From Ulota crispa (Eukaryota; Streptophyta; Bryopsida; Orthotrichales; Orthotrichaceae), in the NCBI GenBank assembly GCA_963920765.1, contig OY987246.1:14008868-14072867 (forward strand): a stretch of 64,000 nt of DNA. Reading direction: 5' to 3'. Shown here one piece after another: positions 5,937 to 60,719 of this stretch. The position numbers and the translations under genes were made by a program. Positions within the stretch are counted from its first letter, which is position 1. The number at the start of each line of letters is the position of its first letter. The notes under the pieces are model-generated. The model was given only the letters and a program-made list of their open reading frames with translations, was not told the origin of the DNA and ran no database searches.

Positions 5937-5940
5937 TTAA

Positions 5941-6161
5941 CCCCTAAAGGACTGAGCGTACCGTTGCAACCAATACAATACGGGAAATTTTTCTTGTATT
6001 TGGAATGGATTCACACCTCTATTACATTTGAGATCAATAAAGTTGGAAAATAGATCAAAGCAGTTCTAGTGAGCTACTTGAGATTCCATATTAAAACTTC
6101 TTACTGGTAGCAAATACCAATTATATGGCAACGTATAGTATGCCCTATGATCCTTTAAGGG
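5941..6161 (-). mobile_element. TTAA-flanked short MITE, copy 1 (221 bp)
   Basis: The left end is CCCCTAAAGGACTGAGCG preceded by TTAA (5937-5940); the right end is ATCCTTTAAGGG followed by TTAA (6162-6165). The interior is the reverse complement of the elements at 48906..49129 and 52674..52899. It is non-coding and piggyBac-like in its ends and target. Confidence 0.85.
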
Positions 6162-6165
6162 TTAA

Positions 6166-6996: not shown

Positions 6997-9442
6997 CTAC
7001 GGTAGAGAATCCTTCTTAGCAGCACGACCAGATTTGATAACGAAGACTAAAGAATCTCCCGCCGGACCAAGACCTTTTCGCCCAACCAACTTCACCCCAA
7101 ATTTAACACACAGGTGCTGTAACCTTTCATTATCATTTTCCAATCTACTCAAATCGACAGCCTGTTCACGAGTTATGGTAGTATACAAGAACAATTGCTC
7201 AGGAACAATGATTTCAGTTGTCTCTTCTACAGATACTTTGGCACTCTTCGCAGGGGAAATCATATGCACTCTCAAAATCGCCAGCGAGGAGAGGTCCAGC
7301 ACCTGCTGATTAAAAATGACAGCAAAGTTCCCAAACTTGAGATCAGGATTCTTGAAAAGGTCCGCCAAAATTGTTGAATATGTAAGCAAATCTCTTGGTT
7401 CAGTTCTTCCCGGTTTAGATGGGTCCAATCTGGCTAACGCGACTCTTGCCATATTAGATGCTTCACGGAAACCACTCAAAAGTGCTCCATGCATAGTTGC
7501 CGGATACTTGCGAATGGTCGCCTCGCCTGCAAAAAAGAGCCTATCATCGACAGGATCTGCCATTGTATCGTAGTCATCGCCTGATGCCCCAACTCCCACG
7601 TTTGAGTAGGAGCCAAAACAAAGACTATCACTCCCCCATCTTGTGCATACAGTTTGCACCGGATTTGGCACTTTTATCCCCTTCGGTTCAAAAATACCTG
7701 CACCAATTGCTTCAAAACTTTAGTAACATGGTAGTTATATGTTGCAGTGATCATGACCTGACTAAAGAACACCCCTGATCAAAAAGACCCTCCTACTGGA
7801 ATAGCACTTAACGGCACTTAACGTACCGCAAAACACTTCTACAAACTCCGAGTAACCTAAGCATAGTGAGTTTGAAAACGCAGTTACCTCTGAGGATGGT
7901 CATGACACGAGTCACAGAGTCGAGGGGGGCAGTGGACTCGAAAGCAATGGCAGCCTCTCCAGCCACTAAAGCCACTAACAGTGGCCCCCCAGCCACAGCG
8001 GCATAATTGTAAAACATGAAATACGCGCCACGGTTGTGGGGATCTTCCTCGAGATGCCCAAATGTGTCTATATTGGTATCCCAAAATACTCTTGGGAAGA
8101 GCATCACCACCTTGTTCAATAGACCAAAGCCTAACCTCTGAATGGCATCCAGCTTGTATTTAGGCAATGGTGGTTCGAAGGCAATCATGTTCCTCTTCAG
8201 CACCCCCAATGGCACAGTACACAACACCATCTCACCGTCAAAAGACTCATCTGCAGTGTCCACTCGCACCCCATCGTCTCCATATTGTATTCTCTTCACA
8301 GTCTTACCATACAGGATTGGCACATTCTCACACAGAGCGTCTACAAACTGAACATTTCCTCCCTTGAGGAAGCAATGGTCCCCTCCCATTTCAAAGATAT
8401 CATCCTGATCCCAATCAGAAAGTGAAAGACTAGTAAGCAATTGTGCATTGGCGTATTCGAGATTCGCAAAATGCCAATCGAAAAGCTGTCTCTCTGCGGG
8501 AATAGTGCCCATTCCAGAAGTGTGCCGTACAAACTCCAAGATGTTCCCTAGAGAGATCTGAAGTGAATTTTCCTGATTAGCCTCTCGCCATTTGCTACAA
8601 GTGTCCAACAACTGATTAAACTGGGCTTCCACCTTCTTATCAACTTCATCAACAGCAAGCTGACCATTGGGTTGATAAATTGGACACGAGTCCCTGATTT
8701 TCTGCATAGTCCAGTTCATTTGACGAGCCAAAACACCTATAGGATTCCCGTGCATTCCAGTCACAACACTACCCCCTAAATCAGCTGCAGCATGTAGGTT
8801 ATCCACCTTCATCGTCTTAGTATATACTCTACCTCCAGGCCGCTGCCTTCCTTCCAACACAATCACTTCGTGTCCAGAGGCCATCAGATGTCTAGCAGCA
8901 CCAAGACCTGCAAGTCCTGCTCCAACAATAACGACCTTCGCTTTCTTTCTTTCTGCTGGTAACCTAGCTTTGACAGCCAGGGAAACTCCAAAGTTTACGT
9001 AGCCATGGTTCAAGAGAAAGTTGTAAGCCGAAGCAACCAAAGTACTGTGCTGGGGTCGAATGTTCTTCATCACAGTCTCCGGCTCCAGCCAAACAGTCAC
9101 ATCATCCCTCCACTTCGCCAATATATGATTGCGAACAATGATATAATTCTCCTGCTCTTTCCCGCCCAATGTACTCACTACATTTGCTACAATTTCCTCC
9201 TCAGTAAGTGAGTCTCGGGGGAAACCCAAGGCAGCAGCAACAATGGCCTCCACTTCCATTCCTTTTTCCACACTGTCAAATTTTCTCTTAGGCGCTCTCC
9301 GAGTAGACAATCCCTCGATTCGTTCCTCAATTACTTTGTCCATAGCCGATTCATCGTACGTGGACACTTTGGAATGACGCCTAGATGGCCTCTTGTTCCT
9401 CCTCCCTGCCTCTGGCTCTTCCAACTCGATGTTCATTGTCAT
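6997..9442 (-). CDS. LSD1-like lysine-specific histone demethylase (exons 7888..9442, 6997..7697)
   Basis: A flavin amine oxidase of the plant LDL/FLD family, expected to remove methyl groups from histone H3 Lys4 in nuclear corepressor complexes. The two exons give 751 aa. Residues about 63-155 form a SWIRM domain ([33 protein letters not shown]). The FAD dinucleotide motif has G174, G176 and G179. The amine oxidase body includes [29 protein letters not shown], and K444 in [10 protein letters not shown], the position of the conserved catalytic lysine. Exon 2 carries CTRWG, SSGDDYD-type and [20 protein letters not shown]. The 190-bp intron (7698..7887) splices AGAG|GTAACT to CAG|GTATTT and restores LRGIFEPKG. 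There is no Tower insertion, as is normal for plant members. The start ATG at 9442 opens a basic, nuclear-type N-terminus. Which LDL/FLD subgroup it belongs to cannot be settled by eye. Confidence 0.95.
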
Positions 9443-14161: not shown

Positions 14162-14165
14162 TTAA

Positions 14166-15104
14166 CCCCTAAAGAATTGTTGTCCCTTTGGGGGACAAAT
14201 GGGATTCCGGGCATGTACCTATGGCTAAACTACTTTGTGTGATTTCTTGAAAATTTGATTGCAGGTAGAGAATTCAAAGATCTATTTGGACATCCAACTT
14301 TTTCTTCATTTCAACATTTATTGAAGAAGTTGTGCATGAATTTTTGGGAAACCGAGGAGGGCAAGCAACCCAAAATTTATTTAAATTTTGCATTTTTTTT
14401 GAAATGAAAATCTAAAAGTGGTTCTTTAGATATGTGTACATGTGGGAAGCTTTGAATCATTCAATTTTGATTGATGAGTGAGAAGTTTTAGTTTGCAAGT
14501 AGGTATGGGACTCCCAAACCTCCATTCCTTTTACCCCTTGTAAAATTTGGTGCTTTACTTTTTTGAGCTCTTTGTGTATTTTCGTTTTGACTTTTTTTTT
14601 CCAAGTTGTAGTAGACTAAGATTCCTTGGTTTTCACCAATTGGATCACAATAGTTCAAATTTTTGAATTTTACATTTATCCTCCATTTTTGCCTAGTGTA
14701 TATGCAAATTTCATGGCCTTATGGCATTGCAAGATTTTACAAAGTATGATTCACACCTCCAATTCATTTGAAAAATCTCCCATACTTACCTAACTTGGTC
14801 TTCTACATGACAAAAAAAATCTCAACTTTGAGAAGAGCAACTATTTAGATGTAGGAGAGGTCAAAGGCTTTTGAAATTTTTGGGCTGCAAGGAAAAAATA
14901 TTTTTTTTGCACTTCAAATGTGAATTTCTCACTCCTCTACATTTAGAATGAGCTAATTTTTCCCACAAGTACCTCCCATAGTCTAGGGCAAGATCCTACG
15001 GTTGGATTTTAAAAAACAAACTAATTTTTCACCTTTCTATTCATTGCCATAGAAGTGGCAGTTTTCAATGACTTTTGCAAAAAAAGGGTTCACTCCTTTA
15101 GAGG
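14166..15104 (+). mobile_element. TTAA-flanked long element, copy A (939 bp)
   Basis: It begins CCCCTAAAGAATTG after TTAA (14162-14165) and ends ACTCCTTTAGAGG before TTAA (15105-15108). The interior matches 51665..52588 and the inverted 30786..31914 in order, for example GGGCATGTACCTATGG, GAATTCAAAGAT and GCCATAGAAGTGGCAGTTTT. There is no transposase ORF. Confidence 0.88.
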
Positions 15105-15565
15105 TTAACTCCCTCCTTTTCATCCAAAAGTGTACCTAACACAATGTTTTGCCGAACATGTGGAGATACTATTAGTGATTATGTGCCATTCTTGAAAAAT
15201 TCTAAATCATACTACTAAAATCCCTATGATCCTTGGAATATCACATCTCAACCTTTGCAATATTACATTTTATCTAACACATGAAAATTTGAATAAAATT
15301 CTAAAGGTGGATGCGTATGCCAATAGCTAATCTTACTACCAAACTTTCAATGCCCCTTGTAATATCAAATCTCTACCTCTGTGGTATCACATCTCTAGTC
15401 TCTATGATATTATCACATAGATACAATTTAAATGTTTATTGAAATCTTTACTTTGCATTCTATTTAACATAAAAAAATCCAAAAAAAGTTATAATGGTGA
15501 ATGGGTAGTGTAGCAAGAGCCAACTGCTAGTGTAAAATAAAAACAAAAATAAAAACCTCTTAAAT

Positions 15566-22888: not shown

Positions 22889-25800
22889 ATGACGTGCAGA
22901 AACGCGTCTCACGCTGGCTCCTGGTACACCGAGAATGGTATTTGAACTAATCACCCTTTTTGAGGTTTTCGACATTCAATATTTAGGGAAAATTTCATGG
23001 ATACCCCTGAAGTTTGCAATATTTTCATACGTACCCCTGCTTTTTCAGAAATATCACAAATACCCTTGGGCTACCCAAAAAGATTAGGCGTTTTTTTTGT
23101 TATTCATGTCACTTCCTTCTACATTTGTGTACACACTACTTCTTTCTTGTTGTGCGTGCGCACAAAGGATGAAGGGAAGGGGCATGCACAAATAACTAAT
23201 CTTTTTGGATCAAGGGTATATGTGATATTTCTGAAAAAGTAGGGGTATCTATGAAATATTGCAAACTTCAGGGGTATCCATGAAATTATTCCTAATATTT
23301 ATAGTATTTGTGTTGCTTCGATATCTTGTTCAAGAGGATGTCCCTCCCTACCGGAATTGCTCTGTTCCATGTGACCCGTGCTAATGTAACCATCGTTTTG
23401 AGAATTAGGGTTGCAGGGGTTGGCTTCTCATGATCAGTCCTATTTATTTGTTTGTTTGCTTGTTTGTATGTATGTTTGATTTTTATGGCATGAGCTGATA
23501 CTTGACTGTCGTCTTTGTAGCCGAGGAGTTAACTCAGGAATTGGACCAGTGGTTGCGGTCCTCAGGGCTACCCAAGCTCTCCAATGCCCGTGCTGTTATT
23601 GCTCCGTGAGTTCTCTTCGATTTTTGTAATACTAGGGTTGCATTTTCTTGAAGCTGCTTGTGAAAGCACAACCTTTGAAGTGCCTGGTTTGAGACCTGGT
23701 AAGGTGAGAGCACATATGGAGAATTTCAGCATACTTGTAGGCGGAGTTAAAAATTAAGAACACTTTTGACGAAATAGTGAATCTCCAAGAACAGAGAATT
23801 AAGAGTATTGAGTTTAAAGAAGGAACTTTTATGATTCTTAGAGAGTGTGGCATGTCAAACCAATACTTGTAATCTTTTTACACTTGGAATGTATTTGGAA
23901 TTTGGGAAACTGGGAACATTGTTGGGATTAGGTGCAGTAACCTCCGCCTTTTTATGATGATATCAAATGTGTATGTGTGCTTGGTTTTCAAGCAATGTGA
24001 CGAGTGGTGGCTCTCTGGCAGGCACGCTGGCTACCGCTACTCAGGACGGTGTGCAGCTTACGCTTTTGCCAATATTGATCCACAGCGGATGTGAGTTTCA
24101 TCGAATTCCCGTTCTAGAATTACTTTTATTTGCGGAAGAAGCAATATTGGCAGTGTGGTGGTTCTTTTCAAGAGCCGGAATTGTTGATCTGATGGGGGTG
24201 TGTGTTGTGGACGGGGCTTCCCAGACAAAGAGTGTTTCTGTTGGGACCATCACATCATCATTACACAAGGAAGTGTGCATTGTCAACTGCTGCTGCTTAC
24301 AAAACTCCCATTGGAGATCTTCCCATTGATCAAGAAGGTAAAAACTGTCCACCTTATTCCACCTAAGTATATAAAGTCCTCCTTGAGCCCATTCTAGCGT
24401 CACTTATTGAGTGTGCATTCCACATTTTCTCACTTTTTTGCTTCAAATTTTGACCAATTTTTGAGCAAATATATTCAAGTATGTAGCTTTGCATTACCTC
24501 TAGAGTCTTGAATGCGTTGTATAGCTTAAAATTGGAAAAGACAGGGCACGGAGTCATTTGCGGGCTTTTGCAAAAAAGGTAAAAAGTCCTAAATTTATTT
24601 TTGAGACATAATGCAAGCTATATAACGTTTCTATCGCTCTTATGCTATAGCCAAGCTACATGCTTACACATATTTCTCAAAATATTGGCCAAAAATTGGA
24701 GTGACCAAAAATAAACGTCCTTGTCATACCCCGTCTTGGCCTATCTAGCTTGTATTGATACGTGTTGTTATGTTCTTTGGAGCTCCCTAAATTATCTTTT
24801 TTTAAAATCTTCAATGGATGTGAAATCAACCAATTTTGGTCATTTGAGCAATTTGGGGTTACTCTTGCAATAAGCTAAGCATGTAGATTATATTTATATC
24901 TTAGTAATGCCCTTCTACGTAATGAATCTGTCTCATAGAATTGATTGCTACAGTTCCACTGATGCAAATTGTTTTCACAGTTTACGATGAGCTCCGAGCA
25001 ACTGGCAGGTTTGAGAACATGGACATGAGTGTTGATGAGGCGGAGCACAGTATGGAGATGCATTTACCGTACCTGGCTAAGGTTTTTCAAGGGTATGTGA
25101 ACCAGCAAGTTGCAAGTATACTTTTCTTTTCCTTTTTTTTGCAATGTTGTGTTTTTGACATAAATTTTGTATCTTGGAGAACCAAGTTCATCGCTAGAGT
25201 TTCCATGTTTCCACTTTGCGCAGGACGTCTGTGAAAATTGTGCCTATCATGGTAGGTGCTTGTCCTCCTGAGACTGAGGCCACGTATGGGCGTATATTGG
25301 CAAAGTACATTGATGACCCAGCCAATTTCTTTTCAATTTCTTCAGATTTCTGCCACTGGGGATCACGGTGAGTCTTTTGCTGATTTCAATAATCCTCTAG
25401 TGTTTTTTTCAAAGTATTCAGAAATCATCTCCAGTAGTGTTAGGATCTAGAGCTACCTTTGCTTATGAAATGTAACCATCCTACGTGTCAGCTCCAAATG
25501 GCCAAAAGCGGCCATTTCCAGTTGTTGAGGATCTGAGATAGATCATTTAAGAAGGTATCAAGGTGGCAGAGTATATCAATAGATAGAAGAAAATCTTGCG
25601 CTACAATTTTGAACGATAAAAAAATGTTTTGAAATTTGTTGAATCAGCTTGTTTCCGAAGAAGACTTTCTGTTTTTATCTTGGGCATTTAGGGGTTAATA
25701 AAGTTCTAATCAGCGAGATCAGTAAATATGCTTGTTCCTCTCAACATGAGTGTTGCAAAGAACTTTTTATTTCAACAAGCACGTTCCTCACGAGGGCACT

Positions 25801-26262: not shown

Positions 26263-28744
26263 CACGAGTACCTCAAAGCTTTCTTTTCAGTAGTTCTATT
26301 GCTGCTGCACAACTCAATTTGCACCACACAGTGAAGCCGAAGCTGTTCAGCTTCATTTTGGTGCTTAGACTAGTGGAATTTCGTATTGATGGCAGCGCTT
26401 GTCGATCTGGAAGCTGACATGTTACTTTTATCCGGGTTGGGAGCTTGGTCAAGTGTTGCATATGCTGTAACTCTTGACAGAGTATGCTTACTGGAGATGA
26501 TTAAGTAATGTACACCTAATAATACGCAGGTAACGTTTGGGAATGTATTGTTGTGTACCGGTTTTTCAAGTAAATTCTAGTGCGCCTAGTAAGTATTTTT
26601 TGAACACTCACAAATGAGTACTGGAGACTTATTGATTGGAAAGTTGCAAGTGTACTGAGAGCAGATTTTCATTTCTTTGAAGTTGGCAAAGGGCTAAGAC
26701 ATTTGCCGATTGCCGAGTTGGTAAAGTATATTTCTACTTTGACAAACAAAAGTTGTGTCCATCACTTTTCACTTTACTTGTGAGTAGGGAGGAATCATTA
26801 CTGTAGTTCTTTAACAGGCATTCAAAATGTGCTGAATTTTATAATGCATTTCAAGAGTCCTTCAACAAATTGCTGAAATTTACAGTGTTACCATGAATTC
26901 CTTCTCGAAGTTCCTTTGTATTCAAATTGGATGCATATATATTGGTGGAAAGCTATTGACAATATCTTTCCAATGACATATTACAGGCCTCGATTGTAAT
27001 CTTGGTCTAAATTCTACCAGGGCATTCAGAAATAATGACCTCCTCGTGCAAGGCAAATTCAAGTACAAAGTTCTTCCAAAGTTTTCAATTGACTTCGACT
27101 CCGTAACCCTTGAACACTCGGCTAGTCACCGTGATTGCCCCCAATACAATAGCTCTACACATTGGTATGGCAAGTGCCTGTCCATTATGATACTATTTCT
27201 AAAAGTTCCAAAAGTCAATAGTATGTGCAAATCTTATGAAAATTACAAGAAGGATTGCATTGGACCTAACCATGCATTTGAATCTTCTCACAATTTGAGG
27301 TACCTAAAAGTATGAATGCATTTGATGAGGTTGTTTTTTTGCCTTTCATGATGCACCATGAATTTATGATTACTTCTAAAAAAATTCTGATGAAAAATGA
27401 CTTTTTCTTACCTAAACATTCTTTTGATGAGTAACGAACCAAAAAAACATCCCCTTGAGCATTTAAGGGTAAAAACACAAGCTTTGTCCAGAAATCAAAT
27501 CCACCGTGTTTACCAATTCTTTTTTTTATTTTTTGGCCAACCAACCACACTTCCACGCGCATTGATATTGACCCATACAGTCTTTACAAACCTTGGACTG
27601 CCGAAGTCATCTAACTTACGCATGCAAAGCCGCCATCATGAGGCAGAGGAATTTAAACCTGCTCCTGTCTTACACGTACGTGGCGTTCAGTCAGCAAGTG
27701 GGGTAGAAAGTTTGAGAAAGCATGGCTCAACTTCAATGACCACGGACCTTTGAAATACAAAAAGAGTTTATCTAAAGTCACTTCAACAGCGGTCAACAAC
27801 TTCGTACCTCAAATGATTGCGTAAAGCATTGCCCAGAAACATTCACTTCATTTCAAAAATATTTCTTTAGCAAAAATCTATTTTCACGTGGTTCCAGGAA
27901 TCAAGCTGGTTTGCCAACCGCCTGCATCAATTTCGTCACCTGGTATGTGCTTTTAGGTGAAGGAAAAATGCTCGACTCATCCGAAACTATCAACATAAAC
28001 CCCTTCCTTATAAGCTTTGACCTCCTTGCTAGGCTTTCAAATAACAGTTCGTTCCTTATTAGGTATTCCTGTACAAATACAAAATTCATACGAAGTGATA
28101 AGAGCTTGATCTCAACAGTATTGACTCTTAAATCCACAGTAAACTCGCCAGTAAGAGCTCTATTGAGTGATCTCCCAATGAAAGCACACTCATACATACT
28201 AAATAGAATACTACAAACGCTTAAAACGACAAAAAGATAGCTTGTATCTTTGTATATATACACAAAGTGCCCACTCTGCTAAAAACCCTAAAATTCCTAT
28301 ACAAATTGTTATCACGCAAACCCAACATTTGCAGCAATACTGTAAAGGTCGGGAGATTACTGAATCATTCAGGGAGGCCGGCCGATCCGGCGGAGCATAA
28401 CCTCAGGAGTGGGGATTGTTATCAAGTGGTGGAAAGGAAAATAAGCATGAGTTGGCTAAATGTCGGTGCTCTTTGAATGGAAATAGGGTTGGAAATATCA
28501 TTGTCGTCTACAACCTCTCAACTTTGAAACTACAGAAGATAATTCATAGGAAGTGATCAGCGTTTAATCCCTACAGCTTAGGCTTATGAGCATGCTTAAA
28601 CAGCAACTGGTAAACTGCAAGGGATGTCAAGACTGTGGATCCTGAAGCTCAAGACCTCAAATCGCTGCACAAAGCTCTCATCACACAAATGCAACACTAA
28701 GCACGGTTACCGGCAAACTGGATCGATCGATCGGCAAGGAGTGG
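26263..28744. other. Convergent spacer between the MEMO and PLAC8 genes
   Basis: The 3' ends of both genes face each other. 26263 to about 26700 is probably MEMO 3'UTR and about 28400-28744 PLAC8 3'UTR. Complementary ORFs at 27901-28263 and 27911-28240 have no family features. No mobile element boundary was seen. Confidence 0.5.
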
Positions 28745-30771: not shown

Positions 30772-30785
30772 GATTTAACCCTTAA

Positions 30786-31914
30786 CCCCTAAAGGACGTA
30801 ACATTGTTAACCTTCAATAGGGGTACCCTTTTGCTCCCCACAATATGAGAATCCCCCAGCAAATGGCACGAGCTGGCTCTCGCCCTCGCCAATCGGCTCT
30901 CAAGATCTTTAACTAATCTCTCCCCCCAGGTATCCGGGGGAGAATATCCTTCCATTTGCTAGGGGGAGGAATACAGCTGGTTAACAATGTTATGAACTGA
31001 GCCATTTTTTCAATGAAAATCACTCAAAACTGCCACTTTTGGAGGGTTTAGTAAGAAGGTAATTTTTTTTGAAAATTTGCAAAATCTAACCATAGATCTT
31101 GCCCTAGACTAGGTTAGGTACTTGTGGAAAAAAAATCAGGTTGTTCTAGATGGACATGAGTGAGATATTTACATCTAAAGCAAAAAGAAAAGTTTTTTTC
31201 ATGCTGCCCCAAAATTTTAGAAGCTTTTGACCATTCTTACATGAAAATAATTGCTCTATGCAACTTTGTGCTTTATTTTACCCAAGTAGGAGATCAAGTA
31301 AGAGATGTGTGAGAGAATTTTCAAATCAATTGGAACTACACAACACATGGGAAAAATCAGTAAGTAAAAATAAGTAGAGAATGAGTCAAATCACTAAATT
31401 GTTACAAATTTAATTATTAAAATGAAAATTGCAAATCCTATTGGTCATAATGTTGTGATAAACAATCTAGTTCCTTTGGTTTTTTTTTTTTTTCCAAAAT
31501 AATGAAATTGAGTAAAATAAAGGAATTCAAAGTTTAGTTTAGAGTAGAGAATCCATAACTGCCCGCAAACAAAAACTCCTCATAATTTTGATCTCATTGA
31601 TTGAAATTGAATGATTCAAAGCTTCTCACGTATAAATAAAATCTAAAGAACCAATTTCAAATTTTAATTTTAAAAAAATTAATTTTTTAAAAAGTTTTTG
31701 GGCTGCCCTTGCGGGCAGTCCTCCCCAAATTTTCAGAAATTATTGCGTAACTTCTTCAATAATTGTTGGAATGAGGAAAAAATTAGATGCCCGCATAGAT
31801 CTTTGAATTCCCCACCTTCAATAAAAGTTTCAAAAAATCACACAAAGTAGCTTATCCAAAGGTACATGCCCAAACTCCCACCTGTTCCCCAAAGGGACAA
31901 TAGTCCTTTAGGGG
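30786..31914 (-). mobile_element. TTAA-flanked long element, copy B (1129 bp, about 935 without the nested insert)
   Basis: Ends CCCCTAAAGGAC (30786-30797) and GTCCTTTAGGGG (to 31914), with TTAA on both sides (30782-30785, 31915-31918). The interior is the reverse complement of 14166..15104 and 51665..52588. It is inserted in the TTAA inside the end of the outer element and carries a third insertion. Confidence 0.88.
30799..30992. mobile_element. Nested MITE (194 bp, TAACATTGTTAAC ends)
   Basis: Ends TAACATTGTTAAC and GTTAACAATGTTA are perfect inverted repeats. It is GC-richer than its host and contains GGGGGAGAATATCC. It splits copy B just inside its left terminus. A relative with matching ends lies at 47606..47774. 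Confidence 0.82.
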
Positions 31915-32651
31915 TTAAACGTCGCAGAAGCCATTTTGTGGCTTTTGGATGACTGAAAAGTGCTCTCAAAGTGGAATAACACTGTTTTTCATCTAAGATT
32001 CTTGAATTGTGCAGTTCTAGAGCATGTAGATAGATAGCTTTTGCATTCACAAAAGGGTCCCACTTGCCAATTGAGTAGTAAAGATGCACCACTGTGTAGT
32101 GTGTTTTGAATTTTGAGGATCTTTTTACCAAAATTCAATTTAAGTTATTAAAAAGATGTGTTTTTAATTTGAGCATAACAAGCTATAGAAAGTTTACCAA
32201 ATCTAGTTTCTCCTTGTACTTTAAGATTTTGAAAAAATTTAAATTTTGAAAATTTTATTACTATCACAAGTTGAGTACCTATTACCACATAATGGTTACT
32301 TTTTCTAATTTTACCAACATGGGAAGAGAAATTTTATCATGATGATCTTCATCATGGTTCACATCCACAATAAAAAAAATTGGCATAATTCAATACATTT
32401 TGTAATTTATATGAATTTCTTTAGCATTTGCTTCAAAAAATTACAATAATTTCAAATTTTAACCAAAATTTATGAACATTTTTTATACATGTAGTATGCA
32501 CATACCTTCTTCTACCAAAATTATATTATTGAATTTTGATGTTGATTGCATTGCCAAAATAACTCCTAGAAGATGATTGCGATTCCATGGAAAATCCATG
32601 GTTGTAGGCCGGTCCTTTAAGGGTTAAAGTAAACACGTATGTCTGCACATA

Positions 32652-46186: not shown

Positions 46187-46501
46187 TTTAAAAATACCCA
46201 CATGTCATTCCACCAACTGACCAAGTCATCTTGGGCAAGATTTCAACAATTTCTGGGCAGCCCCTTCCTCTAATCTCTTTGTATATATGTTTTTTTGAGG
46301 ATGCCAAGTTTGACATCATAATCACATTTGGTGCCATATCTTTTTATAAAATCATTCAATTCCATATTTTTTTGAGAGGCCAAATGCAAGCTTTTCAATA
46401 CAATCACTTGCACTCTTTTTTCACAATCTTGTCTTAGGTGTTTACATAGGAAATCCTTGCCCAAATATCCAAAAGTTCAAAGTGGGCTTCTTGGTCCTCT
46501 A

Positions 46502-46509
46502 GGGGTTAA
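46502..46509. repeat. Lone TTAA-type terminus
   Basis: GGTCCTCTAGGGG followed by TTAA (about 46493-46509) resembles the right end of the piggyBac-like group. No left partner was found nearby, so it is a solo or diverged end. Confidence 0.5.
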
Positions 46510-48191: not shown

Positions 48192-50555
48192 ATGGCTCGA
48201 GCTGTGGCGTGGAGCCCCTGCTCTCGCCTTGCCTGGTAATCCACCCTCTCCCCTCCCCCCAACTTTGCTGTTTCCCTGTCCAATTCACATTTTGGCATCG
48301 ACGGATTCGTATCTGGTAGCTGCAAAATGGGGTCCTGCTCGTTTTCTGCCCCGGGAATCACGAACCCAATCGTGTGTCTGTTACTTGGAGAGGTGACGAC
48401 CTAATTTGGCGTTTGTTATTTAGCTCCTGACATTGGATTGTTATTGAATTGTCGATGTTCAGGGCAAGCGATGTGTCGTGCTCTAGACAGGATTTCTTTT
48501 CAGGGAAACGTGGTGACGATCTCAGCGTGAGAAGGCCACCTGTACGCAATCCAGGTGCAGCAGCACTCCGAAGCTCCTACTCCTCGGATGCGTCGTCGTC
48601 GTCGTCGTCGACAGGCTTTCAAGCACGTTGTGCGACTTTTAATCAGCCGTCTAGCGCATGGAATCGTTCGACGAACAATCGAGATACCAATGCACAACGC
48701 TGGGTCGAAGAATCTGTGCACGAGGTACGTCCTAGCCCATTTCTTTCTGCCATCTTCATATCCTGCTTGACAGAATAATACACCGTCTGCACTCGAAGTT
48801 CTGTAAGCTCTTTTGATGCAAGTACCCGTGGCTGCTTTGAAGCAGCGCCCTCAAAACAGCGGCAACACCTGATTCCAACTGCAATTTTCTCTTCTCTCTT
48901 TAACCCATAAACGACCATAGAGCATAGTATATACGCTGACGTATAATTGTCATTTGCTACTAATAAGTAATTTTAATTTGGGATCTCAAGTAGCTCACTA
49001 GAACTGCATTGACCTATTTTCCAACTTCTTTGTTAGTCTCAAATGTAGTAGAGGTGTGGATCCATTCCAAATACAAGAAAAATACCTCGTATTGTATGGG
49101 TCGCAAAAGACCTTTCAGTTGTTTAAGGGTTAACCAATTTCAGCCTAAGGTAGACATACCTATTCATTCCCGAGCGTCCAAGGGTTTAGGGTATCGTAGG
49201 GTCTTGGAAAATTCAGGAAAAAAATCTGGAGGGTTAGCCTTTCAACAAGCTATCATGGAATGTCATTTTTGTGGAAAAAGTATTGTAGAATGTTTTGTAT
49301 TAAAGGGCAAAGTTACAGCTCATGAGGTCCATACAAGGAACTTTGAACTAACCCTCAAACTGATGTGTTCCTATAACAATACTTGATGGTCCTAATCCCA
49401 ACCCTCCCAAACTAGCTTAGTAGTTTACATGTGGCAGGATTTGTTTGTGCAAGTAACGTTCACGGCTTCACTTTGGGTTCAATAGTGTGAAACCCTCAAA
49501 TCTAGTGTGCAGAATTGGGAGCCGCTCGAGAATGGGTGTGTCTAGCTTAGTAACCCTCACATAGTCTCATTTTAGAATCACCTCTTTTTGATATTTTTGG
49601 AAACCATATTTGAGTTGGATGTTTCGAAATCATGCTATTTTCCGAGCGTTATGAGTAGCGCTCAAGTCAATCCTTTTGGTGTGGTTACATGTGAGAATGG
49701 TGTGATGGTTTTATGCATTGGTGCTTGGTTAACATCAACACTTTGGGCTAGAAAAAAGTGTTGACCTTATCCAAATATTGATCATAAATGAACACTCCAT
49801 TTGCATTATTTTTCCTAATTTTGGTGGTTGCAATTTTGGAGGTGCTTTCCAACCCATGTGTTTGGTACACTAACCAAATGCCTTTCTAACTAAGGAGTCA
49901 GAATGGGCATTGAAGAAAGGCAAACGTTGACTATATGCAAGCACTTGACCTAACCTAGACCAAGTTCATAATATATGCTTCGGGCAAAAGGGAGTGGGGC
50001 TGTGATCTTATCTGTGATCTTATCCAATCATTTCTGTTGACGTTAACCAAACACCAATGTATGCAGATTGTGCGGAACATCCAGGAGGCACCGTTCTTGC
50101 AATACGTGTCCTTCTGCAAGGACAGGCTTGGACACTCACAGCGGCAAAAGATCTCCCAGGAGCTTTTGAGAAACGGCGACCACTGGTCTCCAATATCGGA
50201 GTCTTTGTCCGACGTGGATCCCGATGTTGTCATCCTTGTGCAGAAGCTGGATCCAAGCGCAGACCCATCCGAATATTCTTGTTCTCTTGATGGAGCTTTT
50301 CAATCGGCAAACGACGGAGGAGATGAAGAAGACGAAGAAGGCAGGGTGTGGCCTCCCTTGCAAGCTGAGGGAGCAGAAACCAACCTGTGGGGAGTGCTTG
50401 TGCAGGCACGAGGCGTGCAAGTAAATGCTTGCTACCTGTTGACAACGTCAAGGGTGTTGTCCTCTGCTGGAATCTGCACTCGGTACTGTTTGACAAGAGC
50501 CAAGTGTTGTGGGCCTTCTTATGTTGACCAGCTTGAAAATGCTTGGCTGCTGTGA
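48192..50555 (+). CDS. DUF7804-like, probably plastid-targeted protein (exons 48192..48235, 48463..48724, 50067..50555)
   Basis: A 264-aa protein of unknown function, resembling the plant-specific family that includes Arabidopsis AT1G27385. The function is not known. Residues 1 to about 85 are Ser/Arg/Ala-rich without acidic clusters and look like a chloroplast transit peptide (MARAVAWSPCSRLAWASD, then a run of six Ser). The conserved region starts RWVEESVHEIVRNIQEAPFL, continues with HWSPI, PDVVILVQKL and an acidic linker GGDEEDEEG, and ends WGVLVQARG, CYLLTTSRVLSSAGICTRYC and QLENAWLL. The first intron (48236..48462) joins TG|GTAATC to CAG|GGCAAG, giving LAWASD in frame. The second (48725..50066) holds two MITEs, the last touching the acceptor. 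The family assignment rests on the memory of the C-terminal motif and is fairly sure. Confidence 0.82.
48906..49129 (+). mobile_element. TTAA-flanked short MITE, copy 2 (224 bp), in intron 2 of the DUF7804-like gene
   Basis: Ends CCCATAAACGACC and CAGTTGTTTAAGGG with TTAA on both sides (48902-48905, 49130-49133). The interior matches 52674..52899 closely (TTTTAATTTGGGATCTCAA, AAATGTAGTAGAGGTGTGGA). Confidence 0.88.
49716..50059. mobile_element. 344-bp MITE, copy 2, ending at the exon-3 splice acceptor
   Basis: Ends CATTGGTGCTTGGTTAAC and GTTAACCAAACACCAATG are 18-bp inverted repeats with one mismatch. TATG is duplicated at 49712-49715 and 50060-50063, and the right copy is part of TATGCAG, the acceptor used by exon 3 (50067). 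Inverted relative of 3507..3850. Confidence 0.88.
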
Positions 50556-51660: not shown

Positions 51661-51664
51661 TTAA

Positions 51665-52588
51665 CCCCTACAGGACCAACTGTCTGTTCAACAGACAAAT
51701 AGGATTTTGGGCATGTACTTATGGTCAAATTACTTTGCATGATTTTTTGAAATTTTTATTGAAGATGGGAAATTCAAAGATATGTGTGGGCATCAAATTG
51801 TTATTACAATTGATGCCGGGGAGCAAAAGTTGTGCCCAAATAAGCACAAATTTGGGGACTCCGGGCAGCAAAAAAAATTCTTATAAAAACTTGAAAAAAA
51901 AAAATTATTTATTTTTTCTCATAGATTACATTTTTTTCTACATCTGAAGCTTTGATTCATTCCATTTGGACAAGATATGAGAAAGTTATGGACAATCTTG
52001 TTTCTTGGGCAACTCAAGCATCTTCTTGAAAAAATAACTTGTAAACTTCATTTTTGAATGTAATTTTAGCATTTTTTCAAAAAAATTTGTTGGAGAGGGA
52101 GAAGTTTGCTTTCTAGAACAATCTCAGCATTGGGATCATTGCATTTCAATTCCATTGCAAGGTTATTAGCGATTTAAGTTTTTGTTCAATCTCATACCTT
52201 CTTTTGCTTAATGTTTTTTTTAAAGAATGAAAATTAATTATTTTTTGTTTTTTTTTTTTCCCAAGATTACCAACTCAACTTCCCACCATGCAAAAATAGA
52301 ATTCCAAACTCTAAGGTGCAAAAATTTTAAGTTAAAAAAGTTCAAAGTTAAATAATCTAGTCATGCAAGGTGCAAAAAAGTTGTATTTTACTTTTTAAAA
52401 GCAAATATCTTCCAATCTGTACAGTCAAAGTTCTTGAGTTTTGTATGACACATTCTTACAATAGTCTAGTAAAAGATCCTACGGTTAGATATGCAAAAGG
52501 ACCGATTTTCAAACTTTTTTACTTTTTGCCATAGAGGTGGCAGTTTTGAGTGTCTTCTGACAAAATAAAGGCCATGGTCCTTTAGGGG
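51665..52588 (+). mobile_element. TTAA-flanked long element, copy C (924 bp)
   Basis: Ends CCCCTACAGGACC and GGTCCTTTAGGGG with TTAA on both sides (51661-51664, 52589-52592). It is colinear with 14166..15104. It is the cleanest uninterrupted long copy and has no transposase ORF. Confidence 0.9.
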
Positions 52589-52673
52589 TTAAAACAGCGC
52601 ATACGCAATACATATTGTAGGCATCCAATAGGGGCTTCAAACCTAGACAATTCTATCTTAGAAAGTTGCTTAA

Positions 52674-52899
52674 CCCCTAAACATTAGGAGGGCATAGTAG
52701 ATACGTTGCTGTATATTTGGCATTTGCTACCAACAAGAAATTTTAATTTGAGATCTCAAATAGCGCACTAAAACCGTGTTTATCTATATTCAAACTTTTT
52801 TGTTGATCTCAAATATAGTAGAGATGTGAATCCATTCTAAATTCTAGAAAAATATCCCATATTGTATTGGTTGCAGAAGGCCATTCTGATGTTTAAGGG
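52674..52899 (+). mobile_element. TTAA-flanked short MITE, copy 3 (226 bp)
   Basis: The left end CCCCTAAACATTAGG follows TTAA (52670-52673); the right end GATGTTTAAGGG is followed by TAAA, one base changed from TTAA. It matches copies at 48906 (direct) and 5941 (inverted). Confidence 0.85.
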
Positions 52900-60155: not shown

Positions 60156-60159
60156 TTAA

Positions 60160-60246
60160 CCCCTAAACATCCAGGAAGATGTTTTTTGTCCCCGCAAATA
60201 AACTGAACTTAGTGTATCCACGGTGACCCCTCTAGATGCTTAGGGG
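60160..60246. mobile_element. Minimal TTAA-flanked element (87 bp)
   Basis: Ends CCCCTAAACATCC and GATGCTTAGGGG with TTAA on both sides (60156-60159, 60247-60250). It holds little beyond its two termini. Confidence 0.8.
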
Positions 60247-60719
60247 TTAATGTATATGCTTGAGGATGCCCTAGCAATCAAATGCAAATCTATTTCTTAA
60301 GATTATTGAAGATAACGACTAAGCATTTTGAATAAAATTGCACTAATGATGACCAAGAAACAAAAATGTTCATAGAATATCATAAAGTTGTGCATACTAC
60401 ACTGTTAGTCACTTTGTTAAGTTTTTGATGTGAAGTTGCAACAACCTATAATTTCTTTTTGGCTTTAAAAAAATAATTGTAGAACAAATATCGATTGAAA
60501 CACTTGAATTTATACAGTGTCTTAAGGCTTTGTGTGCATTTCATTTGTGATAGAAATCTAAATGAGTAAATGCCTATTCAAACCAAAATGTCCATTTTCA
60601 TACTTTGTTAACCAAAAAGGAGACTTAGAAGATTTTTGAAAATGATATTAATGATTTTGGAACATTATTATGATTTTTTTGTTTAATTGGTAAAATACAA
60701 GGCTCCTACTTATAGTAGA
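60247..60719. other. AT-rich non-coding spacer
   Basis: No gene or repeat boundary recognised. Confidence 0.5.

Follow-up and report, generated by a model that had tools for sequence, protein, structure and literature searches.

TTAA-flanked miniature elements and their large piggyBac-type relatives in the genome of the moss Ulota crispa

The window, the whole 64 kb stretch of DNA analysed here, is located in contig C5 of the 274.8 Mb Ulota crispa genome (157 contigs) and encodes SLAC1/SLAH-type channel, LSD1-like, GT47 and PLAC8 proteins. It also harbors seven elements of three size classes, each found at, or no more than two bases from, the place given in the initial annotation; together they make up ~3.8 kb of the 64 kb, a figure that applies to this window and should not be extended to the genome. 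The long element at 51661..52592 (subfamily D; no strand is assigned here or below unless indicated) measures 932 bp with both TTAAs, has inverted ends of 19 nt that are 95% complementary, is bounded by TTAA and is overlapped by no open reading frame of 110 or more amino acids. Two further long elements are found at 14162..15108 (subfamily A; 947 bp with TTAAs) and, on the reverse strand with its left end at 31918, at 30782..31918 (subfamily B). The latter contains a nested insert of ~200 bp (~30797-30995; CATTGTTAACC...GGTTAACAATG), apparently another small inverted-repeat element within the piggyBac-type MITE. Short elements are present at 5937..6165 (229 bp with TTAAs), 48900..49133 (234 bp with TTAAs; 82% identity to the former) and 52670..52899 (79-80% identity to the other two), and a tiny element of 87 bp without TTAAs, with ends CCCCTAAACATCC and CCCCTAAGCATC, at 60156..60250. 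The originally reported lengths of 939, 924, 221-226 and 87 bp, counted without TTAA, are correct, while the copy placed at 48906 has its CCC beginning at 48904. The elements are flanked by TTAA as had been described, except that the copy starting at 52674 has it on the left only, the right TTAA being lost and the flank now reading GGGTAAAA.

A 13-base end, CCCYTAAAGGACC, had been proposed as common to the termini. The elements and termini are real, but the sequence is matched exactly by just two termini in the window (32611 and 52576), and the remainder are mostly one to three bases off; three termini, namely the right one of the 60160 copy and the two of the 52674 copy, diverge further and give no match at up to four mismatches in 17. 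At up to two mismatches, the window contains 11 matches to CCCYTAAAGGACC, where 1.63 would be expected; no shuffle out of 100 reached as many. Four single related ends were also observed (21259, 25698, 32627 and 46509). Among these are an exact end, CCCTTAAAGGACC, at 32611..32627 and an end with one mismatch at 46493..46509, neither with an assigned partner, and an end of a sister type, CCCCTAAATGCCC, at 25682..25698, all three on the reverse strand and adjoining TTAA. Matches at 27473 and 47469 have four mismatches each, at which level chance matches also occur (0-7 in each Markov control). An alignment of 14 long MITEs, from which the shorter pairs L051, L052 and L057 and the duplicates L043 and L050 were omitted, resolves five groups, several with unrelated interiors and all of ~900-960 bp; MITE pairs of 499-727 bp exist as well (L051: 499 bp; L052: 727 bp; L057: 725 bp).

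The initial annotation had called for a genome-wide examination of the sequence adjoining these ends. Exact copies of CCCYTAAAGGACC occur 10,851 times in the genome (reversed control: 5), and 9,236 of them (85%) follow TTAA (TTAACCCYTAAAGGACC; control: 0), leaving 1,615 exact ends that do not. TAA precedes the end 9,600 times (TAACCCYTAAAGGACC; control: 0), and T occupies position -4 at 9,236 of these sites (96.2%). These counts bear on the possibility that the elements are Tc1/mariner-type MITEs with a TA duplication, next to which an outer T and A would stand by chance or preference. TA is indeed contained in TTAA, but the retention of the outer T in 96.2% of the TAA sites excludes a TA-only duplication, and a DDE_Tnp_1_7 transposase lies between ends of this type, as described below; we therefore consider the Tc1/mariner explanation vanishingly unlikely.

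The conservation of TTAA nearly equals that of the ends themselves, which could be taken to mean that the element includes TTAA and that the real target duplication is to be sought further out. However, among 45 distinct sites (47 less two with near-identical flanks) the information per base is 1.6-2.0 bits within TTAA and at most 0.25 bits beyond it; TTAA is present in 42 of these 45 sites, a biased fraction since most sites were fetched for having TTAA. Likewise, two abutting elements at L046 have a single TTAA between them that is common to both. Furthermore, L042, of which L043 is a duplicated copy, is an insertion nested in a subfamily-E MITE, and its insertion point is represented by one TTAA in four independent empty copies of the host MITE (L039, L004, L047 and L041). 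The reading of TTAA as target rather than element thus stands, and we give its inclusion in the element next to no credence.

The filled copy at L042 has GTAA and AAAG as its own flanks; these are decayed, and the original target was TTAA. L042 therefore illustrates a route by which flanks other than TTAA arise, with decay demonstrated for this one such element. Among 37 candidate pairs tried in the empty-site test, several of which represent the same locus fetched twice, L042/L043 is the sole clear case. Two other comparisons are weak or adverse: L049, compared with L050, has its place in a short tandem array, related units of which show TTCA or TCCA instead, and a 75%-identical sequence for the L047 site (L047/L053) lacks TTAA and is too diverged to decide. 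In the same test L046 and L052 matched themselves only, and no empty copy was found for the flank of the window element at 51661.

The window was reported to contain no transposase, and in agreement with this a tblastn search of it with 38 transposase rows gave no match at an e-value of 1e-3. The genome, by contrast with the window, yielded 120 matches to PF13843 (DDE_Tnp_1_7) when 116 out of 528 candidates were scored; the matches listed all lie above the curated cut-off and they are spread over contigs C1-C11. None of 14 control genomes gave a match, although these controls are not established as plants and say little on specificity. The L019 frame aligns with the solved structures of piggyBat (9c0f; e-value: 2.5e-20) and of what we take to be Trichoplusia ni piggyBac (6x67; e-value: 7.2e-19), and its aspartates align with piggyBac D268, D346, D447 and D450. 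Across 38 rows from 37 loci, aspartate occupies these columns in 34, 28, 32 and 31 rows, respectively, the residue otherwise being mostly asparagine. At D346, asparagine accounts for nine of the ten lost catalytic aspartates. Such losses fit, as expected, C-to-T decay on the other strand, which is perhaps caused by DNA methylation. In addition, piggyBac transposase-like frames in which the domain match is free of stops were observed at L075 (C1:1179600-1182600), L076, L077 and L019; one of these could be a domesticated gene. A C-terminal piece of T69 displays, by eye, the spacing CVVC..CPSC..C..C..H, for which Pfam returned no zinc-domain match.

Long flanks were fetched for eleven transposase loci (L059-L064 and L065-L069), with further extension for five, those of T64 and T68 not being extended. 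The seven DNA-related loci among them (L063-L069) comprise four with CCCYTAAAGGACC-like ends on both sides, two with one such end (T64: 3′ end only; T67: 5′ end only) and one with neither (T68), proportions that do not represent a genome-wide rate since the choice of L065-L069 was guided by their resemblance to L064 at the DNA level (29 matches). A DDE_Tnp_1_7 transposase with the same ends as the miniature elements, for which the initial annotation had proposed a search, is therefore present. The two-ended elements are T66 on C5 (8829 bp with TTAAs), T65 on C4 (8434 bp with TTAAs), T63 on C9 (8530 bp with TTAAs) and T69, also on C9 (7956 bp with TTAAs); seven of their eight ends adjoin TTAA and one adjoins TTAT. 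On the miniature elements, too, short inverted termini that are CCCYTAAAGGACC-like and start CCY are found on either side. At L064, TTAACCCCTAAAGGACC is located exactly at the limit of homology with L063, 1.8 kb past the transposase domain. T67 is absent from the scored PF13843 list and was assigned on the basis of DNA and protein similarity.

The transposase domain of the large elements is separated from the 3′ end by ~1.5-1.8 kb and from the 5′ end by 4-6 kb. For this reason the first 30 transposase loci, fetched with 1.5-kb flanks, displayed no GGACC end, a flank-length artefact. L068 was discarded as a two-ended element, the ends being those of a MITE near its transposase and not its own.

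The long MITEs of the window share 73-84% identity with the large elements over 98-216 bp on the left and 70-82% over 56-603 bp on the right. Thus, 14162-15108 matches T66 over 179 bp on the left (83.8%) and over ~530 bp (534 bp) on the right (74.9%; e-value: 1e-98), 30782-31918 matches it over 200 bp on the left (84%) and 339 bp near the right end (77%), and 51661-52592 of subfamily D matches it only over 142 bp on the left (81%) and 135 bp on the right (73%). The end of L064 aligns with the window at 15108-14699 (74.9%; e-value: 3e-76) and 30996-31330 (75.1%; e-value: 1e-56), and four long MITEs of C1 resemble the large elements over 168-210 bp on the left (75-92%) and 347-539 bp on the right (71-80%). 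In the short class, the match of 5937-6165 to T64 and T63 is restricted to 21-23 end bases, while 48900-49133 and 52670-52899, as well as the tiny 60156-60250, have no match to the large elements at an e-value of 0.01.

The ends held in common with transposase-bearing elements, together with aspartates that align with D268, D346 and D447, identify the long miniatures as piggyBac MITEs. The original assignment to piggyBac is thereby upheld for the long classes, whereas the 225-bp and 87-bp classes are putative piggyBac MITEs by virtue of TTAA and their outer ends. Kolobok and Sola3, as other TTAA-targeting superfamilies, could also be envisaged as the source of the MITEs, given that they have this target in common. 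The transposase within the same ends is, however, of the DDE_Tnp_1_7 family and aligns to solved piggyBac structures, and CCC opens the ends, a start found also in five of six beetle piggyBac end motifs listed in a recent study (PMC12732532). A Kolobok or Sola3 origin is refuted for the four two-ended elements and is very improbable for the MITEs at large; a search that covered DDE_Tnp_1_7 as its sole family showed no element in which another transposase type sits between such ends.

A conserved frame beginning MPR is found 1.07-1.49 kb from the 5′ end of T63, T65, T66, T67 and T69, interrupted by stops in some copies, while the DDE part is situated near 5-7 kb, kilobases after the MPR frame. 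Third codon positions are the most variable in six pairwise comparisons, four of the MPR frame and two of the DDE part, with a weak excess for T63 against T67 (44 versus 38 and 35); this excess reads as a mark of past coding selection. Pfam assigns the MPR frame to no family; it may be the opening portion of a split transposase gene, or else a separate, second gene. Some of the large-element lengths are inflated by nested palindromic inserts. Palindromic fold-backs of ~300-900 bp were observed inside or beside these elements (L063: 5443-6317; L064: 5611-6023; L066: 810-1133 and 2232-2655; L069: 5295-5657), those of L064, L066 and L069 being related to each other.

In a tree of the 38 transposase rows, 28 of which have no assigned ends, a 100/100 branch separates all seven rows with GGACC-type ends (from six loci, of which two carry the label by virtue of a single end) from the other labelled group, three rows of the CATTGCC or CACCGCC type. 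Among the labelled rows, end type follows transposase clade. A 5.03-kb pair, L059/L060 (90% identity), was considered as the partner of the window elements and rejected, as it is piggyBac but has other ends (CCCCTCATYGCC); relative to the CCCYTAAAGGACC type, the ends of L059-L062 as a whole are different or unresolved. A further end type, TTAACCCTTTAGTGTCC, was observed at L061 6409 (L061/L062; L023/L024 clade), exactly at the homology boundary of the transposase pair. Another abundant TTAA family, with ends CCCYTAAAYGCCC, contributes 4,034 exact TTAA-flanked ends (TTAACCCYTAAAYGCCC; control: 0); its listed pairs include elements of ~635 bp and 79 bp, and it is represented in the window at 25682-25698 and 21259. 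The transposases fall into several deep clades whose members are decayed, suggesting that piggyBac has been long-lived in this lineage or entered it more than once. All GGACC-clade transposases seen have stops or broken frames, which makes present activity unlikely, and the family is probably inactive here now unless an intact copy exists among the unscored candidates.

Copies of the 932-bp window element were sampled from 6,177 candidates, of which 40 were scored; all 40 align, 36 of them over positions 1-932, and 39 share 89-91% identity with it, the remaining one being the element itself. Seven copies, namely that of the window and six drawn from the seven best-scoring after it, and hence the closest copies only, lie 0.038-0.056 K2P from their majority sequence, with 91-94% pairwise identity, and each is flanked by TTAA on the left and on the right. 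L044 and L049 are more distant, at 0.11 from the majority sequence. This star-like divergence suggests a past burst of the window's family, ~4-6% divergence ago. For the 229-bp class all 40 scored copies likewise align (3,274 candidates; 39 at 87-89% identity, the other being itself), in what appears to be the same flat pattern. The scored MITE copies are distributed over contigs C1-C10.

The best-studied piggyBacs are those of animals, and as such animal contamination, or a recent single transfer, has to be weighed as the origin of these sequences. The assembly is nevertheless that of a plant genome, as the initial annotation held: contig C1 has TTTAGGG repeats near both ends (a single four-unit match at 2.5 kb from the start and, within the final 3 kb, a long array), the genes of the window are of plant type and the genome contains 56 matches to chlorophyll a/b-binding (LHC) proteins. 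The Lhca3 protein (L085) has its best solved relatives in 6l35, 7xqp, 7ksq and 8htu, 29 bits above the next, while for an LHCII protein (L084) the multi-repeat chains of 9vfj are top in total and 7xqp and 8htu provide the best single-domain chains; 6l35, 7xqp, 7ksq and 8htu are presumably from Physcomitrium patens. Eight similar-scoring LHC genes were also seen clustered within 0.4 Mb (C4:21391382-21771811). With transposases on C1-C11 and scored MITE copies on C1-C10, several deep and decayed transposase clades, and MITEs nested in MITEs, contamination is refuted and a recent single transfer is highly unlikely as an explanation, although piggyBac may have entered by an old horizontal transfer.

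The long elements are, almost certainly, miniature non-autonomous piggyBacs: they carry the ends of the 8-9 kb elements of this genome, which are of autonomous size, but no longer the transposase gene. The same or a sister transposase probably served the short classes. The piggyBac superfamily is best known from animals, and is characterized by a TTAA target and ends that start with CCC. T. ni piggyBac (IFP2) and piggyBat resemble the moss elements in TTAA target, CCC ends, a related transposase (6x67 and 9c0f) and aligned aspartates. In known piggyBac systems a trans-acting transposase nicks at CCC, a TTAA hairpin is formed, insertion duplicates 4 bp and the donor site is repaired precisely. 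While targets, ends and enzyme can be read from the sequence, the catalysis proposed here is by analogy: a transposase supplied in trans would bind the MITE ends and nick at CCC, the TTAA hairpin on the excised element would be opened, the element would be inserted at another TTAA with a 4-bp duplication, and the donor site would be rejoined precisely.

Pokey of Daphnia is a large piggyBac-derived element. The intact beetle piggyBacs measure 2074-3465 bp with one open reading frame (PMC12732532), whereas the moss elements reach 8.0-8.8 kb including nested inserts and have a 5′ frame, 1.1-1.7 kb in, separate from the DDE part. Teratorn of fish attains 41-182 kb (PMC6431247). Teratorn and Pokey are thus similar in that piggyBac-type elements may exceed 5 kb, although the size of Teratorn derives from herpesvirus genes, none of which was recognised here in a Pfam search of the 5′ frames and DDE part. 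In animals, piggyBac MITEs are of the Looper/MER75/MER85 type. Those are, like the moss MITEs, internally deleted, non-autonomous and TTAA-flanked, but the present ones differ in their plant host, in more than 10,000 exact ends and in five long-copy groups, several with unrelated interiors.

PiggyBac is no stranger to plant repeat annotation: it is among the superfamilies found in all groups surveyed, including land plants (PMC4438587), has 1,230 copies in a repeat table of the C-fern (PMC6890710) and is named among angiosperm MITE superfamilies in a review (PMC10004981), while a 2025 paper terms its plant occurrences occasional (PMC12732532). These land-plant annotations, as far as the sources could be consulted, are table or list entries, whereas the present analysis connects ends and targets with empty sites and with elements of autonomous size. 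A search of the plant, moss, liverwort and bryophyte literature exclusive of subscription papers and preprints, mostly at the level of titles and the starts of abstracts, returned no description of a native moss piggyBac. The superfamily is accordingly known and listed for land plants, and the interest of the present case lies in the host, the scale and the enlarged elements.

For work in animals piggyBac is a standard tool. In rice it has been employed for marker excision (PMC5505980), yet native copies in plants have barely been described in the literature searched. The thousands of native TTAA insertions document, in a natural setting, how piggyBac behaves in plant chromatin, the moss elements offer ends that are adapted to plants, and vertical descent versus horizontal entry into land plants becomes testable by means of other bryophyte genomes. 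On balance we favor, with some reserve, the view that mosses harbor a deep, diversified and once highly successful piggyBac radiation, with several old transposase clades that each have their own TTAA-CCC end type, autonomous elements enlarged to 8-9 kb in which the transposase gene is split, and MITE bursts that maybe amount to several percent of the genome. If this is true, piggyBac would rank among the major transposons of plants for one land-plant lineage or more, and would not be an animal speciality.
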